This document shows, in pieces, positions 3,909 to 14,219 of a stretch of DNA of 21,523 nucleotides. A program made the translations under genes and the position numbers. The DNA is from a virus: IMG/VR virus record IMGVR_UViG_3300042879_001721, positions 1-21,523 of that record. One strand, 5' to 3'. The notes below the pieces were generated by a model. The model did not search any database. It saw only the letters and a program-made list of their open reading frames with translations, and was not told where the DNA came from. Each line of letters starts with the position of its first letter. Positions within the stretch are counted from its first letter, which is position 1.

Positions 3909-4178
3909 ATGCTAGTGCTTCGGCGTGCTGTATCGGAAGAGATCATTATCACGGTCGGCAAAGAAACAATCGTCGTAAAACTGGTTGACACTATTGGAAC
4001 GAACCACGCACGGCTCGGCTTCACAGCATCAAAAAACGTGCGGATCGATCGCAAGGAAATTCACGACGCGATTCAGGAAACAGGCTTCAATCCGGAAGCG
4101 TTTCCAATCGCCCCGATCGTGCCAGTGATTCGAATCGGTGAACGGCTTCCCGGCGAATTGATGCGGAGAAAAGTCTAA
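3909..4178 (+). CDS. csrA: CsrA/RsmA-family RNA-binding regulator with C-terminal extension (89 aa)
   Basis: CsrA dimers bind GGA motifs in mRNA leaders and control translation and stability. Residues 1-56 align by eye with E. coli CsrA: MLVLRRAVSEE for MLILTRRVGET, then IIITVGKETIVVKLVDT, ARLGFTAS for VRIGVNAP, and IDRKEIHDAI for VHREEIYQRI. RNA-contact positions Leu4, Arg6 and Arg48 (E. coli Arg44) are kept; Arg7 is Ala. About 30 extra residues follow the usual 60-residue core. The ribosome site AAAGGA (3896-3901) is itself a GGA motif, which suggests autoregulation. It follows a structured RNA and overlaps the next gene by one base (TAATG). The family call is firm; target identity, host or phage, is unknown. 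Confidence 0.85.
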   Translation: MLVLRRAVSEEIIITVGKETIVVKLVDTIGTNHARLGFTASKNVRIDRKEIHDAIQETGFNPEAFPIAPIVPVIRIGERLPGELMRRKV

Positions 4179-4429
4179 TGACACGACGCAAAAAAGCCGG
4201 GAAGAAATCAAACAGGCTACACGCTCCAGTCGATCGCAAGCCAATGACGCGAGATCCATCATTGGAAGAGATTTGGGGCACTGAAACAACGATCGGGCTG
4301 GCGGAAATGATCCGCATGGAACGGCCTGACTTGCCACAGAACAAAGGGCTGCATCGGCCTTCGCAGATTCGGCAGTGTTCGACGCGGATGTTGCCAGGTG
4401 GTAGGGGCGTATTGAGGGGGCAGGGATGA
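4178..4429 (+). CDS. Small basic unknown protein (83 aa)
   Basis: Coupled to the csrA-like gene by TAATG (4176-4180) and to the resolvase gene by ATGA (4426-4429). The N-terminus is strongly basic (MTRRKKAGKKSNR), the middle is acidic and helical (SLEEIWGTETTIGLAEMIR, residues 28-46), and the C-terminus is rich in Gly and Arg. I recognise no family. Its place between a regulator and recombination genes suggests a nucleic-acid-associated accessory protein, but this is only inferred from charge and position. Confidence 0.6.
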   Translation: MTRRKKAGKKSNRLHAPVDRKPMTRDPSLEEIWGTETTIGLAEMIRMERPDLPQNKGLHRPSQIRQCSTRMLPGGRGVLRGQG

Positions 4430-4839
4430 GAGAGTTCACGGTGCATCACGAGCCAGTCGGACAGCCACGACATCGCATATCGACACACGGAAAACATGCC
4501 CGCATGTACCTGCCGACAAAGCATCCGGTTCACGCATTTAAGCGAGCGATACAGGCGGAATTCGGCAAGCGGTTGCCATTCCATGAGGCGGTGGAGATTG
4601 TCGTCAATGCTTGGTTCCCTCGGCCGAAATCGAAGACGTGGAAAACAAGGCCGATGCCATCGTATCGACATGTTAAAAAGCCTGACGCCGACAACGTGCT
4701 GAAGGCCGTGCTTGATGCGTTGAACGGGCTGGCGTGGGTTGACGACGCGCAGGTGTTTTCAGCGACCGTGAGAAAATTTGTGTGCAGTGGTGAGTGTGTT
4801 CCAAGGTGTGAAATTGTGATCAGAGGAGTGAGTGAATGA
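4426..4839 (+). CDS. rusA: RusA-type Holliday junction resolvase (137 aa)
   Basis: RusA enzymes are small dimeric nucleases that cut four-way DNA junctions made during recombination and replication. The signature KPDADNVLKAVLDALNG (85-101) followed by WVDDAQV (104-110) supplies the catalytic aspartates (Asp87, Asp89 and Asp106/107). The start of the protein (FTVHHEPVGQPRHR) is the usual RusA beta strand, and the length of 137 residues is normal (about 120-140). It overlaps its neighbours by ATGA on both sides. It fits functionally with the annealing ATPase and DUF669 protein that follow. Confidence 0.9.
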   Translation: MREFTVHHEPVGQPRHRISTHGKHARMYLPTKHPVHAFKRAIQAEFGKRLPFHEAVEIVVNAWFPRPKSKTWKTRPMPSYRHVKKPDADNVLKAVLDALNGLAWVDDAQVFSATVRKFVCSGECVPRCEIVIRGVSE

Positions 4840-5603
4840 AAATCTTGAAAGGTAAACAGGGCGGACCACGTCGCGTCCTGTTTCATGGGACGAACTTTAT
4901 CGGAAAGACAACGTTTGCTTCGCAGGCATTCGGCGGGGCACTGTTGGCGAATCTCGAAGACGATCGAGACGTTGACATGGACAAGACGCCCCCGATTCGA
5001 ACGTGGGATGAGTGGCAGGAATTTTGGTTGCATTGCGACACGACGGCGGCAAAAGGTGAATTCCCTTATCGCTGGATTGCCATCGACACAATCGACGCTT
5101 TGCAGCGGATCATTGAAAAGCAGATCTGCAAAGAAAAAAACGTCGAATCGATGGCAGACGATAAATTTAGCTATGGCAAGGGCAACAAGTTTATTGAGGC
5201 CATGTGGGACAAGATCAAGTTTCAACTGGATTGGCTGCACACCGAACGCGGGCTGGGAATCATCCTGCTGGCACACAGCGAAGCCGTGAAGATTACTCCG
5301 CCAGATGCACCATCCTACGAGCGGTGGGAACCGTCCGTCTGTGAGTTCGCTCGTGATCTCCTTTGCGATTGGTGCCAGGAAGTTTTCTTTGGATCGTTCC
5401 GAACTTACGCAGTCAAAGAAGACACCGGATTTAATCGCACTCGAAACATCGCGGCGGGTGGCAGCGAGCGTTTTGTCAGGACGCAGCCAACGGCGGGAGT
5501 CCGTGCCAAGAACCGTTTGAACATGCCGGAAGAAATGGTTGAGTTTTCGTTCGAGAAGTATGCAGAGTTTTTTGTCCCGAGTGAAGTTTTGAAAGGTAAT
5601 TGA
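4836..5603 (+). CDS. Sak4-like recombination ATPase (255 aa)
   Basis: RecA-fold phage ATPase of the Sak4/AAA_24 type, used in single-strand annealing recombination. Walker A is GTNFIGKT (18-25) and Walker B is WIAIDT (80-85). GIILLAHSEAVK (141-152) fits the next core strand and sensor region. The core starts almost at the N-terminus (RVLFHG, 13-18), as in Sak4 proteins. It lies between a RusA resolvase (ATGA overlap) and a DUF669 protein, and a Sak4-DUF669 pairing is a common phage arrangement. The ATPase fold is certain; the Sak4 assignment depends on fold and context. Confidence 0.82.
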   Translation: MKILKGKQGGPRRVLFHGTNFIGKTTFASQAFGGALLANLEDDRDVDMDKTPPIRTWDEWQEFWLHCDTTAAKGEFPYRWIAIDTIDALQRIIEKQICKEKNVESMADDKFSYGKGNKFIEAMWDKIKFQLDWLHTERGLGIILLAHSEAVKITPPDAPSYERWEPSVCEFARDLLCDWCQEVFFGSFRTYAVKEDTGFNRTRNIAAGGSERFVRTQPTAGVRAKNRLNMPEEMVEFSFEKYAEFFVPSEVLKGN

Positions 5604-10168: not shown

Positions 10169-12307
10169 ATGTACGAACGGATTCCCGAAGAACTTCGAGC
10201 CGTCAGTCAGTGGCATTGCTGGAAGAATGTTGACGGAACAAAAATTCCGATTCAGGTTGATGGGTCATCTGCAAAGTCAAATGATCCATCGACTTGGACC
10301 GACTTCGAGACGGCTTCAGATGCTGCTCAATTTCATTCCGGCCTGGCGTTCGAAATTACAGCGCCGTGGACTGGGATTGATCTTGATGACTGCATTGATG
10401 ACAACGGGATCAAGCCGTGGTGCCTTGAGATTTTGTGCCGATTTGACGGCGTTGGATTTGCAGAAGTCTCGCCGTCCGGGAACGGGATTAAGATCCTGAC
10501 ACGAGGCCGAAAGCCAGAGGGTTCCAGATGCTCGCACAAGCTGACGGAAGGCGGCGTTGAGTGTTACGACAATCGACGATTCTGGACCATCACTGGTGAT
10601 CTTTACAACGGGCAGGATGAGATCGGCGATGGACAGCAGGCCGTTGATTGGCTCTGCGAAAAATTCCTTTCGAGAGAAAAGAAAACCGAACAGCCAGTTC
10701 TTCCGGCGATGCCGCCGACGAAAACCGGCTCGCTCGAAAGTCGCGTCGAATCCTATCTGCAGTCAGTCCCGCAGGCGGGTGAAGGCCAGAGAAATCAGTC
10801 GGCGTTTCAGTTGGCTGGGCATCTTCGGAGCTTCGACCATGACGGACACAGACTCACTGACGATCAGGTTTTGGAATACTGCCGGGGCTGGAACGCGAAG
10901 AACGCGAAGCCATTGCCGGATGAAGAACTGAAAGCGGCAATCAGCTCCAGCGGTCGAAACGGAACGGCGCGAGAAACAAAACCGAATAGGCCATTGGAGG
11001 AATTCCGGTCATCGGTGGATCTGTCCGGAATCCTCGGGCCGGAACGGTCGGACGACTTTGATGATGAGCAGTTCTGCGTTGATGCGGTCCCGGAATCTGG
11101 ATTGCTCCGGGAGATCTTCGACTACTACTGCCAAACATCCCACCGAACATCGCCAGTCATGGGGCTGGCCGTTGCGGTCAGTCTTTGCGAAACGATCTTC
11201 GGCCGACGCATCGCAAGCCACACAGACATGCGGACCAATGACTACAACGTCATTATGGCTCCGACAGCGAGCGGGAAAGAAGCCTGTGAAACGACAATCA
11301 CGAAGATTCTCCAAGCGGCTGGCAGCGTTCCTATGCTGCCTCCCGATGTCCAGAGCGGTAACGGGCTGATTAAGGCAATCAGCTCTATTCCGTGCGGGAT
11401 CTGGTGTTGTGATGAGTTCGGGAAAATGCTCGAAGCCATCATTGATAAGAAGTCAAACAACGGTCACGCGAAGCAGATCGGAACGCATCTGCTGAAGCTT
11501 TACTCAAAGTCTTCAGGGGTTTACGGAGGGGCCGCGCATGCGGACGGGATTCGCAATCAGGTTGATCAGCCGCATCTGGTTTTGTTGGGACTGACAACGG
11601 GCCAGATGTTTGAAACGATTGACAGCCGTCAGGTTCAAGACGGGCTTTTCGGGCGGCTGGCATTCTGGCCGGTTCAGAATCGGCCAAAACGAAAAACAGC
11701 CAGAGCGATTCCGGTTCCGGATCGACTGGCGGAAATCGTTCGGCAGTGGATGCAATGGGAGCCAGTGAGCGGCAATCTTGGGATTCCTGCCCCGGTCATT
11801 GTCGAGATGACCGGCGAAGCCGTCAGCCGCTGGGATCATCACGCAGACGCGATCGACGAACGGATGGAGCATGAGAGCGAGTCACGCGCCGCGATCTGGG
11901 GGCGAGTTGCGGCCAGGGCGATGAAGCTGGCGATGGTCCATAGGGCGGCCCGGATTGATGATAACCCCGGAACAATCGACTGGCTCTTCCTGCACATTGA
12001 GATGCAGGATGTTGACTGGGGTATCCGGGTTGCCAATTGGCTCGCTCGTGTCGCTTGTGCCCTGATCCGCGAAAACGTTGTCGACACCCAGGCAAATCGG
12101 GCAAGGCATGTTTTGGAAACTGCTGTCCTGAAGTTGGGGTCTGTATCTCGGTCTGACTTGCTCAGGGAGTTCAGGTCAATCAGTGGATCAGAGTTTACTG
12201 CGGCTTCAGAATCACTTGCTTCTGAGGGTCGAATCCGGATTACGCATGAGCTAACGTCGGGCAGATCTCGCATTATTTACGCGAGGCCAGAAACTCAAAT
12301 TTTATAG
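10169..12307 (+). CDS. Primase-polymerase (AEP-like) fused to DUF3987-type ATPase (712 aa)
   Basis: A replication protein that probably makes primers and unwinds DNA. Residues 1-165 resemble the primase-polymerase of phage NrS-1: IPEELRAVSQWHCWK (5-19), NDPSTWTDFETA (38-49), metal-binding GIDLDDC (69-75), SPSGNGIKI (101-109), and YDNRRFWTITGD (133-144). Residues 195-265 look like a PriCT domain (LPDEELKAAI). The second half is a DUF3987-like ATPase: Walker A APTASGKE (364-371) and Walker B IWCCDEFG (411-418). The last 70 residues suggest a winged helix. AAAGGGA (10153-10159) precedes the ATG by 9 bases. It lies directly before the repeat-rich candidate origin. The Walker A codons contain one exact copy of the repeat decamer (11273-11282). 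Confidence 0.87.
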   Translation: MYERIPEELRAVSQWHCWKNVDGTKIPIQVDGSSAKSNDPSTWTDFETASDAAQFHSGLAFEITAPWTGIDLDDCIDDNGIKPWCLEILCRFDGVGFAEVSPSGNGIKILTRGRKPEGSRCSHKLTEGGVECYDNRRFWTITGDLYNGQDEIGDGQQAVDWLCEKFLSREKKTEQPVLPAMPPTKTGSLESRVESYLQSVPQAGEGQRNQSAFQLAGHLRSFDHDGHRLTDDQVLEYCRGWNAKNAKPLPDEELKAAISSSGRNGTARETKPNRPLEEFRSSVDLSGILGPERSDDFDDEQFCVDAVPESGLLREIFDYYCQTSHRTSPVMGLAVAVSLCETIFGRRIASHTDMRTNDYNVIMAPTASGKEACETTITKILQAAGSVPMLPPDVQSGNGLIKAISSIPCGIWCCDEFGKMLEAIIDKKSNNGHAKQIGTHLLKLYSKSSGVYGGAAHADGIRNQVDQPHLVLLGLTTGQMFETIDSRQVQDGLFGRLAFWPVQNRPKRKTARAIPVPDRLAEIVRQWMQWEPVSGNLGIPAPVIVEMTGEAVSRWDHHADAIDERMEHESESRAAIWGRVAARAMKLAMVHRAARIDDNPGTIDWLFLHIEMQDVDWGIRVANWLARVACALIRENVVDTQANRARHVLETAVLKLGSVSRSDLLREFRSISGSEFTAASESLASEGRIRITHELTSGRSRIIYARPETQIL

Positions 12308-12685
12308 TGTACAAGTCGTTTTGGGAAAGAAGGGGTCGTTTACCCTTCTTTCCCGGAGTGGTGTGTAGACATGTCGGAACAATCCTACACATCAGCGCGG
12401 GAAAGAAGGGGAAAGAAGTGGCTTCTTTCCCGGTTGGATTGGGAAAGAAGTCCAACGAGAAAAAGAGCATAAAAGACTATAAAAACTTAAAAAAACACTA
12501 AGTAATACTACCTTCTTTCCCTTCTTTCCCTTGGTGGGGGTAGCTCTTTCTTTTTTCTCTCTGGTCTTGGTCTTCCTGTTTTGGGTCGGGAAAGAAGGAA
12601 AGAAGGGTCGGCGGCAAGTGTACAGAGGATCGCACTTGAAAAGATAACTGTTGACTTCCCGCACTAAACCTAATAGCTTTTGTCT
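12308..12685. other. Candidate replication origin
   Basis: This 378-base gene-free stretch joins the iteron-like cluster to an AT-rich patch (40 of 50 bases A or T, 12461-12510) flanked by inverted copies of the repeat, and lies just after the primase-polymerase gene. It also has a 7-bp inverted repeat TGTGTAG/CTACACA (12362-12368/12385-12391) around the palindrome GACATGTC (12368-12375). Iterons beside an unwinding element is the standard origin layout. An alternative is a large operator controlled by the RHH protein encoded next to it. A poor promoter-like TTGACT lies at 12651. Confidence 0.5.
12323..12607. repeat. Iteron-like cluster of decamer GGGAAAGAAG
   Basis: Nine exact copies of GGGAAAGAAG lie in both orientations: + at 12323, 12399, 12409, 12441 and 12588; - at 12345-12354, 12422-12431, 12512-12521 and 12521-12530 (the last two share one base). 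A tenth at 12597 differs by one base. Some are tandem (12399-12418), others form perfect hairpins: 12323-12334 with 12343-12354 (12 bp, 8-base loop), and 12422-12431 with 12441-12450 (10 bp, 9-base loop). The repeats span only 285 bases and no convincing gene. Confidence 0.92.
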
Positions 12686-13370: not shown

Positions 13371-14219
13371 GTGAATTCGAAACCCATCACATTCGGAAGT
13401 CTGTTCGCCGGAATCGGTGGGTTTGACCTTGGTTTTGAGCGGGCTGGAATGGTCTGCAAGTGGCAGGTGGAGATTGACGACTATGCAAACCGAGTGCTTG
13501 CCAAACATTGGCCAGAGGTTCACAGGGAGCGAGATATCAGAGAAACCGGGCCCCACAATCTTGAGCGAGTCGATGTCATCTGCGGCGGGTTCCCCTGCCA
13601 AGATATTTCCTACGCCGGACTCGGGGCAGGACTTGACGGAGAACGCTCCGGATTGTTTTTCGAGGCCATTCGCCTGGTTCGCGAACTCAGACCGCGAATC
13701 GTTGTGCTGGAGAACGTGGCAGCGCTGCTTACTCGGGGGCTGGACAGAGTTCTCGGGACGCTGGCCGAGATCGGGTTCGATGCGGAATGGCATTGCATAC
13801 CGGCTGCCAGCGTTGGTGCCCCGCATATCAGGGACAGAGTCTTCGTTCTTGCCTACTCCCGACACTGGGGAATCGATCAGCGGGCATGGGGCCCGCGGAG
13901 TGAGCAAAAACCAAAAACATCAGTCGGCAAACAGCTTGGTGGCAATGGCGAAAACGGGGATGTGGCCGACTCCAACAAGTCGGGAATGGAAGGGTGGGCG
14001 GAAGCCAGAAACATTGGAGGCGGCAGGAAGAACACCGAACAACTCGCTATGCGATTCGGTGAACAATGCAGAGGGGATCACTGGGCAACTGAACCCGACG
14101 TGGGTCGAGTGGCTAATGGGGTTCCCAAGCGAGTGGACCGTCTGCGAGGACTCGGAAACGCCGTCGTCCCGCAAGTCGCGGAATGGATCGGCCGGCGAAT
14201 AGTTGAACGTGTAGGGTGA
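13371..14219 (+). CDS. dcm: C5-cytosine DNA methyltransferase (282 aa)
   Basis: Methylates carbon 5 of cytosine in a specific sequence. Motif I FGSLFAGIGGFDLG (8-21), catalytic Pro-Cys loop GGFPCQDIS (72-80, Cys76), motif VI VLENV (112-116), motif VIII-like IRDRVFVLA (153-161), and motifs IX-X RLRGLGNAVVPQVAEWIG (258-274, split by RVD before it) are all present. The target-recognition region (about 165-240) is short and Gly/Asn-rich, as in other small phage enzymes, and the whole is near the lower size limit of the family. GTG start with GGAG (13362-13365) 5 bases upstream. No nuclease partner, so protection from restriction is likely. The +1 frame inside this gene is also open. Confidence 0.93.
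   Translation: MNSKPITFGSLFAGIGGFDLGFERAGMVCKWQVEIDDYANRVLAKHWPEVHRERDIRETGPHNLERVDVICGGFPCQDISYAGLGAGLDGERSGLFFEAIRLVRELRPRIVVLENVAALLTRGLDRVLGTLAEIGFDAEWHCIPAASVGAPHIRDRVFVLAYSRHWGIDQRAWGPRSEQKPKTSVGKQLGGNGENGDVADSNKSGMEGWAEARNIGGGRKNTEQLAMRFGEQCRGDHWATEPDVGRVANGVPKRVDRLRGLGNAVVPQVAEWIGRRIVERVG
13573..14202 (+). CDS. Candidate overlapping +1-frame ORF inside the C5 methyltransferase gene (209 aa)
   Basis: The +1 frame within dcm is open from at least 13417 to TAG 14200-14202. From ATG 13573 it reads MSSAAGSPAKIFPTPDSG, then APDCFSRPFAWF, LCWRTWQRCLLGGW, FSGRWPRSGSMRNGIAYRLP, MWPTPTSREWKGG, LNPTWVEWLMGFPSEWT and TPSSRKS. From memory these strings match a phage protein family often annotated next to methyltransferases, in which they are main-frame genes. 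No good ribosome site is seen. If translated, this would be a 630-base dual-coding region. If not, the family in databases may itself be a misread methyltransferase frame. Confidence 0.4.
   Translation: MSSAAGSPAKIFPTPDSGQDLTENAPDCFSRPFAWFANSDRESLCWRTWQRCLLGGWTEFSGRWPRSGSMRNGIAYRLPALVPRISGTESSFLPTPDTGESISGHGARGVSKNQKHQSANSLVAMAKTGMWPTPTSREWKGGRKPETLEAAGRTPNNSLCDSVNNAEGITGQLNPTWVEWLMGFPSEWTVCEDSETPSSRKSRNGSAGE

Follow-up and report, generated by a model that had tools for sequence, protein, structure and literature searches.

In the SaPI/PICI elements (phage-inducible chromosomal islands), the iterons of the origin are recognised by the Rep helicase through its C-terminal domain, and each element carries iterons specific to it (PMC6092414, PMC7581432). 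This origin organisation has been stated to occur in no other bacterial replicon (PMC6092414). PrimQH-type AEP primases of mobile elements, as presented in Kazlauskas 2018 (PMC5862659), combine an AEP domain, a PriCT domain, a putative helicase (DUF3987 is named) and a C-terminal winged helix (WH) that is predicted there to recognise the origin. The alpha protein of satellite phage P4 is a primase-helicase whose C-terminal WH binds origin repeats (Yeo 2002, as cited in PMC4234260). In plasmid pRN1, orf904 joins an AEP primase to a helicase and a WH, and its origin, just 3′ of the gene, is a stem-loop without iterons (PMC4234260); a stem-loop of ~100 nt downstream of the replication gene is required (PMC4234260). 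Finally, the PrimPol of the deep-sea phage NrS-1 begins DNA synthesis at TTTGGTTA, an 8-nt site (PMC8718748).

The stretch analysed here, termed the window, comprises 21,523 nt (IMG/VR record IMGVR_UViG_3300042879_001721) and contains a cluster of decamers directly behind a primase gene. It is highly likely, judging from sequence comparisons, that a tailed phage starts its replication from this interval, with the predicted WH of the adjacent initiator binding there in a manner resembling SaPI/PICI Rep-ori pairs. The decamer cluster is very probably the start site of phage genome copying. As in SaPI/PICI, the origin lies immediately 3′ of the initiator gene, and two iteron sets, of six and four copies, surround an A+T-rich region. 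C-terminal iteron binding has its putative counterpart in the predicted WH, which covaries with iteron type. The N-terminal primase domain also matches PDB 7ola (‘DNA primase’) by profile at 4e-33. We take 7ola to be SaPI5 PriRep1. The helicase is of a DUF3987/MCM-like kind, where SaPI/PICI have SF3/D5 or DUF927, and the carrier is a tailed phage and not a satellite: the lack of head and packaging genes that marks satellites is not seen in the record of a near relative, L014.

The remaining systems differ in other ways. All four PrimQH parts (AEP domain, PriCT, the P-loop ATPase DUF3987 and a predicted C-terminal WH) are present in the window protein. Origin recognition is a prediction in PMC5862659, to which the present comparison adds the matching iteron origins and shows that they covary with the WH. 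NrS-1 shares the N-terminal PrimPol fold, a similar length (718 versus 712 aa) and a gene neighbourhood with a helicase and an SSB, but it has an SF3 helicase and a novel Tail where the window protein has DUF3987 (MCM-like AAA+) and a WH; the NrS-1 arrangement of an SF3 helicase with Head and Tail domains is absent from the window protein. NrS-1 also has two copies of its 8-nt site, compared with ten iterons in the window (PMC7102993). P4 alpha has a Toprim primase, whereas the N-terminal domain here is an AEP-type PrimPol. The literature searched, with incomplete coverage, yielded no description of iteron origins for these phages. A preliminary description of the locus had called the origin new. 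Its architecture is known, being that of SaPI/PICI origins (PMC6092414, PMC7581432); what is new is the phage/DUF3987 setting, iteron switches that form a natural series, and residue 662 as a candidate for specificity.

Anatomy of the decamer cluster and its neighbours

The features of the locus, in window coordinates, are:

10169-12307, + strand: initiator gene, 712 aa, with PrimPol (N-terminal), PriCT_1, DUF3987 AAA+ helicase-like and C-terminal WH domains (ORF, Pfam, profile, Foldseek)
12086-12283, + strand: WH-coding region, residues 640-705, proposed origin-binding domain (AF2, VIA, divergence peak)
12152-12154, + strand: codon of residue 662, inside the WH-coding region
12305-12624, no strand: origin module, with the TAGTGTACA box at its left end and the AAGTGTACA box at its right end (alignments; the homology of relatives ends just past the right box)
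12323-12332, + strand: iteron 1, left set, exact word match
12339-12414, no strand: inverted repeat in which iterons 2 and 3-4 enclose an inner stem and which may form a stem-loop or cruciform (folding versus shuffles)
12345-12354, − strand: iteron 2, left set, exact word match
12399-12408, + strand: iteron 3, left set, exact word match
12409-12418, + strand: iteron 4, left set, exact word match
12422-12431, − strand: iteron 5, left set, exact word match
12441-12450, + strand: iteron 6, left set, exact word match
12458-12511, no strand: A+T-rich stretch, probable DNA unwinding element
12512-12521, − strand: iteron 7, right set, exact word match
12521-12530, − strand: iteron 8, right set, exact word match, one base in common with iteron 7
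12588-12597, + strand: iteron 9, right set, exact word match
12596-12605, + strand: iteron 10, AGGAAAGAAG, one mismatch, identical site in relative L091
12686-12859, + strand: RHH-like gene, resembling NikA at a score under the Pfam cut-off; shows no correlation with iteron type

Nine exact copies of GGGAAAGAAG lie at 12323-12597, 5 on the + and 4 on the − strand, as the preliminary description had found; the exact copies span 275 bases, and the 285 given there are reached once the tenth, one-mismatch copy is included. In the 400 bases past the primase stop, the commonest 8-mer occurs 10 times on both strands, versus at most 3 times in 200 dinucleotide shuffles. Across the whole window, GGGAAAGAAG with no more than one mismatch occurs 12 times, compared with 2.3 expected; the highest count among 100 shuffles was 6. 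Six copies are found to the left of the A+T-rich stretch, and three exact copies plus the mismatched one to its right. This stretch contains the A+T-richest 50-mer of the 21.5 kb, 80% A+T as first noted; in the L014 record of 40 kb, the 50-mer with the highest A+T content likewise sits between two iteron sets. The first iteron starts 16 bases past the primase stop codon, and likewise in relatives. Exact copies of the respective word fall within the origin in 9 of 10 cases in the window, 7 of 7 in the 40-kb L014 and 4 of 4 in the 39-kb L024. An exact GGGAAAGAAG at 11273, inside the primase gene, was rejected as an origin element: it encodes Gly-Lys-Glu of Walker A, is found as well in L008, a relative with other iterons, and is a coding coincidence.

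The motif TGTACA, at 12308-12313 and 12619-12624, brackets the origin module, as it also does in L006, L007, L008, L010, L014, L091 and L094. These boxes are possibly the site of a second factor or a recombination anchor.

The neighbours are those first reported, a primase-polymerase gene on one side and an RHH-like gene on the other. The primase-polymerase has Pfam matches to DUF3987 (1.4e-9) and PriCT_1 (8.8e-7) and a profile match to NrS-1 primase (5e-35). Foldseek returns NrS-1 PrimPol at ~1e-14 and, for the DUF3987 part, MCM-type AAA+ helicases at 8e-5. The AF2 domain model of the WH (pLDDT 86) follows the pattern H-E-H-H-E-E and compares with many winged-helix DNA-binding proteins at a VIA Z of ~10; the P4 origin-binding domain was absent among the fold matches of this comparison. 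Upstream, RusA, Sak4-like, SSB-like and SF2 helicase genes form a replication module. The window is a fragment, and the 40.9-kb L014 record contains matches to terminase, portal, head and tape-measure genes, which places the group among the tailed phages. A plasmid collection gave N-terminal matches only, and the genome contigs scanned for host-linked relatives contained none. GC skew is uniformly positive, with no sign change or turning point, both in the window and in two relatives of 39-40 kb, so that the cumulative-skew check proposed earlier is uninformative. The window also encodes two DNA methyltransferases (1579-2586 and 13371-14219), one of the N6/N4 type and one of the C5 type.

Same layout, different iteron words in related phages

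Relatives were fetched from IMG/VR with the primase as query. In ~35 of them, nearly all of those tested, the homologous gene is followed immediately on its 3′ side by an iteron cluster. Their best 8-mer occurs in 4-11 copies, versus a shuffle maximum of 2-4; in L042 and L012, the most distant (34-36% identity), the downstream 8-mer count was not clearly above shuffles. The word itself is specific to the lineage. The window, L006, L009 and L091 have GGGAAAGAAG in common, while L014 carries GGGACAGAAG, L008 GGGACAGATT, and L010 and L007 GGACATCTAG. Further words are CGGGACAGGT (L094), GGACAAAAGG (L096), GGGACAGTGG (L015), GGGACAAAAAT (L020), GGGACAGAATG (L022), GTGACAGATTCG (L024), GTTGCCAAACG/GTTGACAAACG (L028) and TTGCGACAACTT (L035). 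The comparison of this interval between related phages, suggested in the preliminary description, thus finds the layout kept and the word changed, and strongly supports its proposal of an origin built from iterons, an unwinding element and an adjacent replication protein.

Close relatives point to selection acting on the iterons. Between the window and L091, 97 of 97 iteron bases are identical, compared with 84% in the rest of the origin. The L014 sites are in register with those of the window, and base 5 is C rather than A in 8 of 10, which is a concerted change.

Iteron clusters are also found 3′ of the related primase in 6 of 10 cultured phages, with the regions upstream of the gene as negative controls. 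The words are CCTATCCCC in Pseudomonas phage PSASB_03, CCTTATAC in Halfdan (host E. coli MG1655), CATACAACG in nyashin_LB6, CCGAAAACA in Axy18 and AGGGAAA in VpKK5; Pavpe01 has the same word as Halfdan, CCTTATAC, as judged from 115 downstream bases. KL1 (L188), RcThunderbird (L189) and Kaya (L190) have a related primase with no cluster downstream, and the cluster of Eidolon is weak. The origins of the first three must look different or lie elsewhere. The Achromobacter phages nyashin_LB6 (L182) and Axy18 (L191) have one host genus, related primases and differing iterons, apparently an independent iteron switch. In another six relatives (L126, L128, L134, L136, L142 and L145), the match begins at about residue 281 and covers helicase and WH only, the PrimPol half having been exchanged; the iteron cluster is still present in most of them.

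Separate inheritance of protein body and origin

The quartet formed by the window, L010, L007 and L091 pairs in two different ways. In the helicase domain, the window is 95% identical to L010, and L007 94% identical to L091. By iterons and origin, the window goes with L091, and L010 with L007. Up to 12239, informative sites favour the first pairing by 142:43; from 12240 to 12626 they favour the origin pairing by 90:1. The formal p of 5e-38 is indicative only, as the sites are not independent. This turnover falls within the WH-coding sequence at the 3′ end of the gene. The split may have arisen by recombination or by parallel change. WH identity is 72% between the window and L010 (helicase 95%) and 55% between L007 and L091 (helicase 94%); in most pairs compared, the WH diverges faster than any other part of the initiator. 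Together, the switch of pairing in the WH-coding end and the high divergence of the WH point to this domain, rather than PrimPol or helicase, as the reader of the iterons.

The same data bear on a reading in which it is the PrimPol domain that recognises the origin, in single-stranded form as in NrS-1, with the decamers serving as primer start sites. Homology of the N-terminal domain to NrS-1 PrimPol speaks for it. PrimPol and helicase, however, track the pairing of the body, and it is the 3′ end of the gene that goes with the origin; moreover, the NrS-1 site is present in two copies only (PMC7102993). We regard PrimPol recognition as quite improbable.

Still less probable is that the repeats form an operator or partition site, bound by a repressor or a ParR/CopG-like protein encoded by the RHH-like gene. 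RHH proteins bind short repeats, and this gene begins ~80 bases downstream of the last one. Among relatives, however, RHH and iteron types dissociate: the window and L006 have the same iteron and different RHH genes, L006 and L014 the same RHH type and different iterons, and L010, L007 and L091 no RHH gene at that place. The repeats overlap no consensus promoter on the + strand, and a scan for sigma-70 promoters and terminators gave nothing above chance. The operator alternative raised initially therefore fails with the RHH protein as specific binder of the decamer, and on this evidence the RHH-like gene appears to lie outside the origin system.

A comparably slight probability attaches to a functional DNA structure, whether a triplex of purine/pyrimidine mirror tracts or a cruciform of the long inverted repeat, comparable to the pRN1 stem-loop. 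The segment 12339-12414 does fold at z −8.0 relative to shuffles in the window, and at −10.7 in L014. Inverted iterons, however, yield hairpins automatically, and the long inverted repeat is not retained in L008 or L010. By analogy with the pRN1 stem-loop, it could have a local role. The triplex is dismissed as a conserved feature or shared function, since the iterons of most relatives are not homopurine and homopurine content is peculiar to the window lineage. At 7173-7207 of L010, and at the equivalent place in L007, the inner stem-loop of the window is replaced by a terminator-like hairpin with a T run, situated between the iterons.

All WH columns were screened in 19 representative WHs of related sequence and unambiguous register; the register of residue 662 is uncertain in the L032/L132/L144 group. 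Residue 662 is the sole WH column that separates ACA-core from other iterons, being Arg in 15 of 15 ACA-iteron lineages and Ser, His or Gln in 4 of 4 others. The p of 2.6e-4 is before correction and for non-independent lineages; the next best column reaches 0.018. The window and L091 have Ser at 662 and an iteron reading AAA where near relatives read ACA. Residue 662 is thus a candidate for iteron specificity, a lead that comes from an all-column screen without an independent test set.

A proposed course of initiation and its specificity

From this layout we infer physical binding, melting, helicase loading, priming and origin activity in the following order. The PrimPol-DUF3987 protein would first bind the decamers through its C-terminal WH, at the two sets flanking the A+T stretch. 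Bound protein would then assemble AAA+ rings, which would melt the A+T-rich element. Subsequently, the rings would unwind the DNA while the N-terminal PrimPol primes or starts synthesis. The initiator would be self-loading and would act on an origin immediately 3′ of the gene that encodes it. Iteron and WH would form a matched specificity pair that switches jointly and apart from the remainder of the protein.

A further and more tentative reading, which we consider possible though rather doubtful, is that the WH end and the iteron origin constitute a portable replication-specificity cassette, exchanged among related phages or re-coded by a few residues. Residue 662 would read base 5, and co-infecting relatives or satellites could not fire each other's origins. 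If so, replication compatibility in these phages would be a typed trait that evolves fast.

Phage PrimPol-DUF3987 proteins form a large class of uncharacterised function, for which the clusters offer candidate origins; they also show that the SaPI-like origin layout extends beyond satellites. In addition, they provide a natural series of close initiators, each with its matching iterons, the words being one to several bases apart. This series makes the specificity of origin recognition directly testable, including in the E. coli K-12 phage Halfdan.

In L012, a gene at 4138-4854 that overlaps the start of the primase opens with a WH-like segment resembling the C-terminal WH of that primase. Its product might be a regulator that binds the same sites as the L012 primase.
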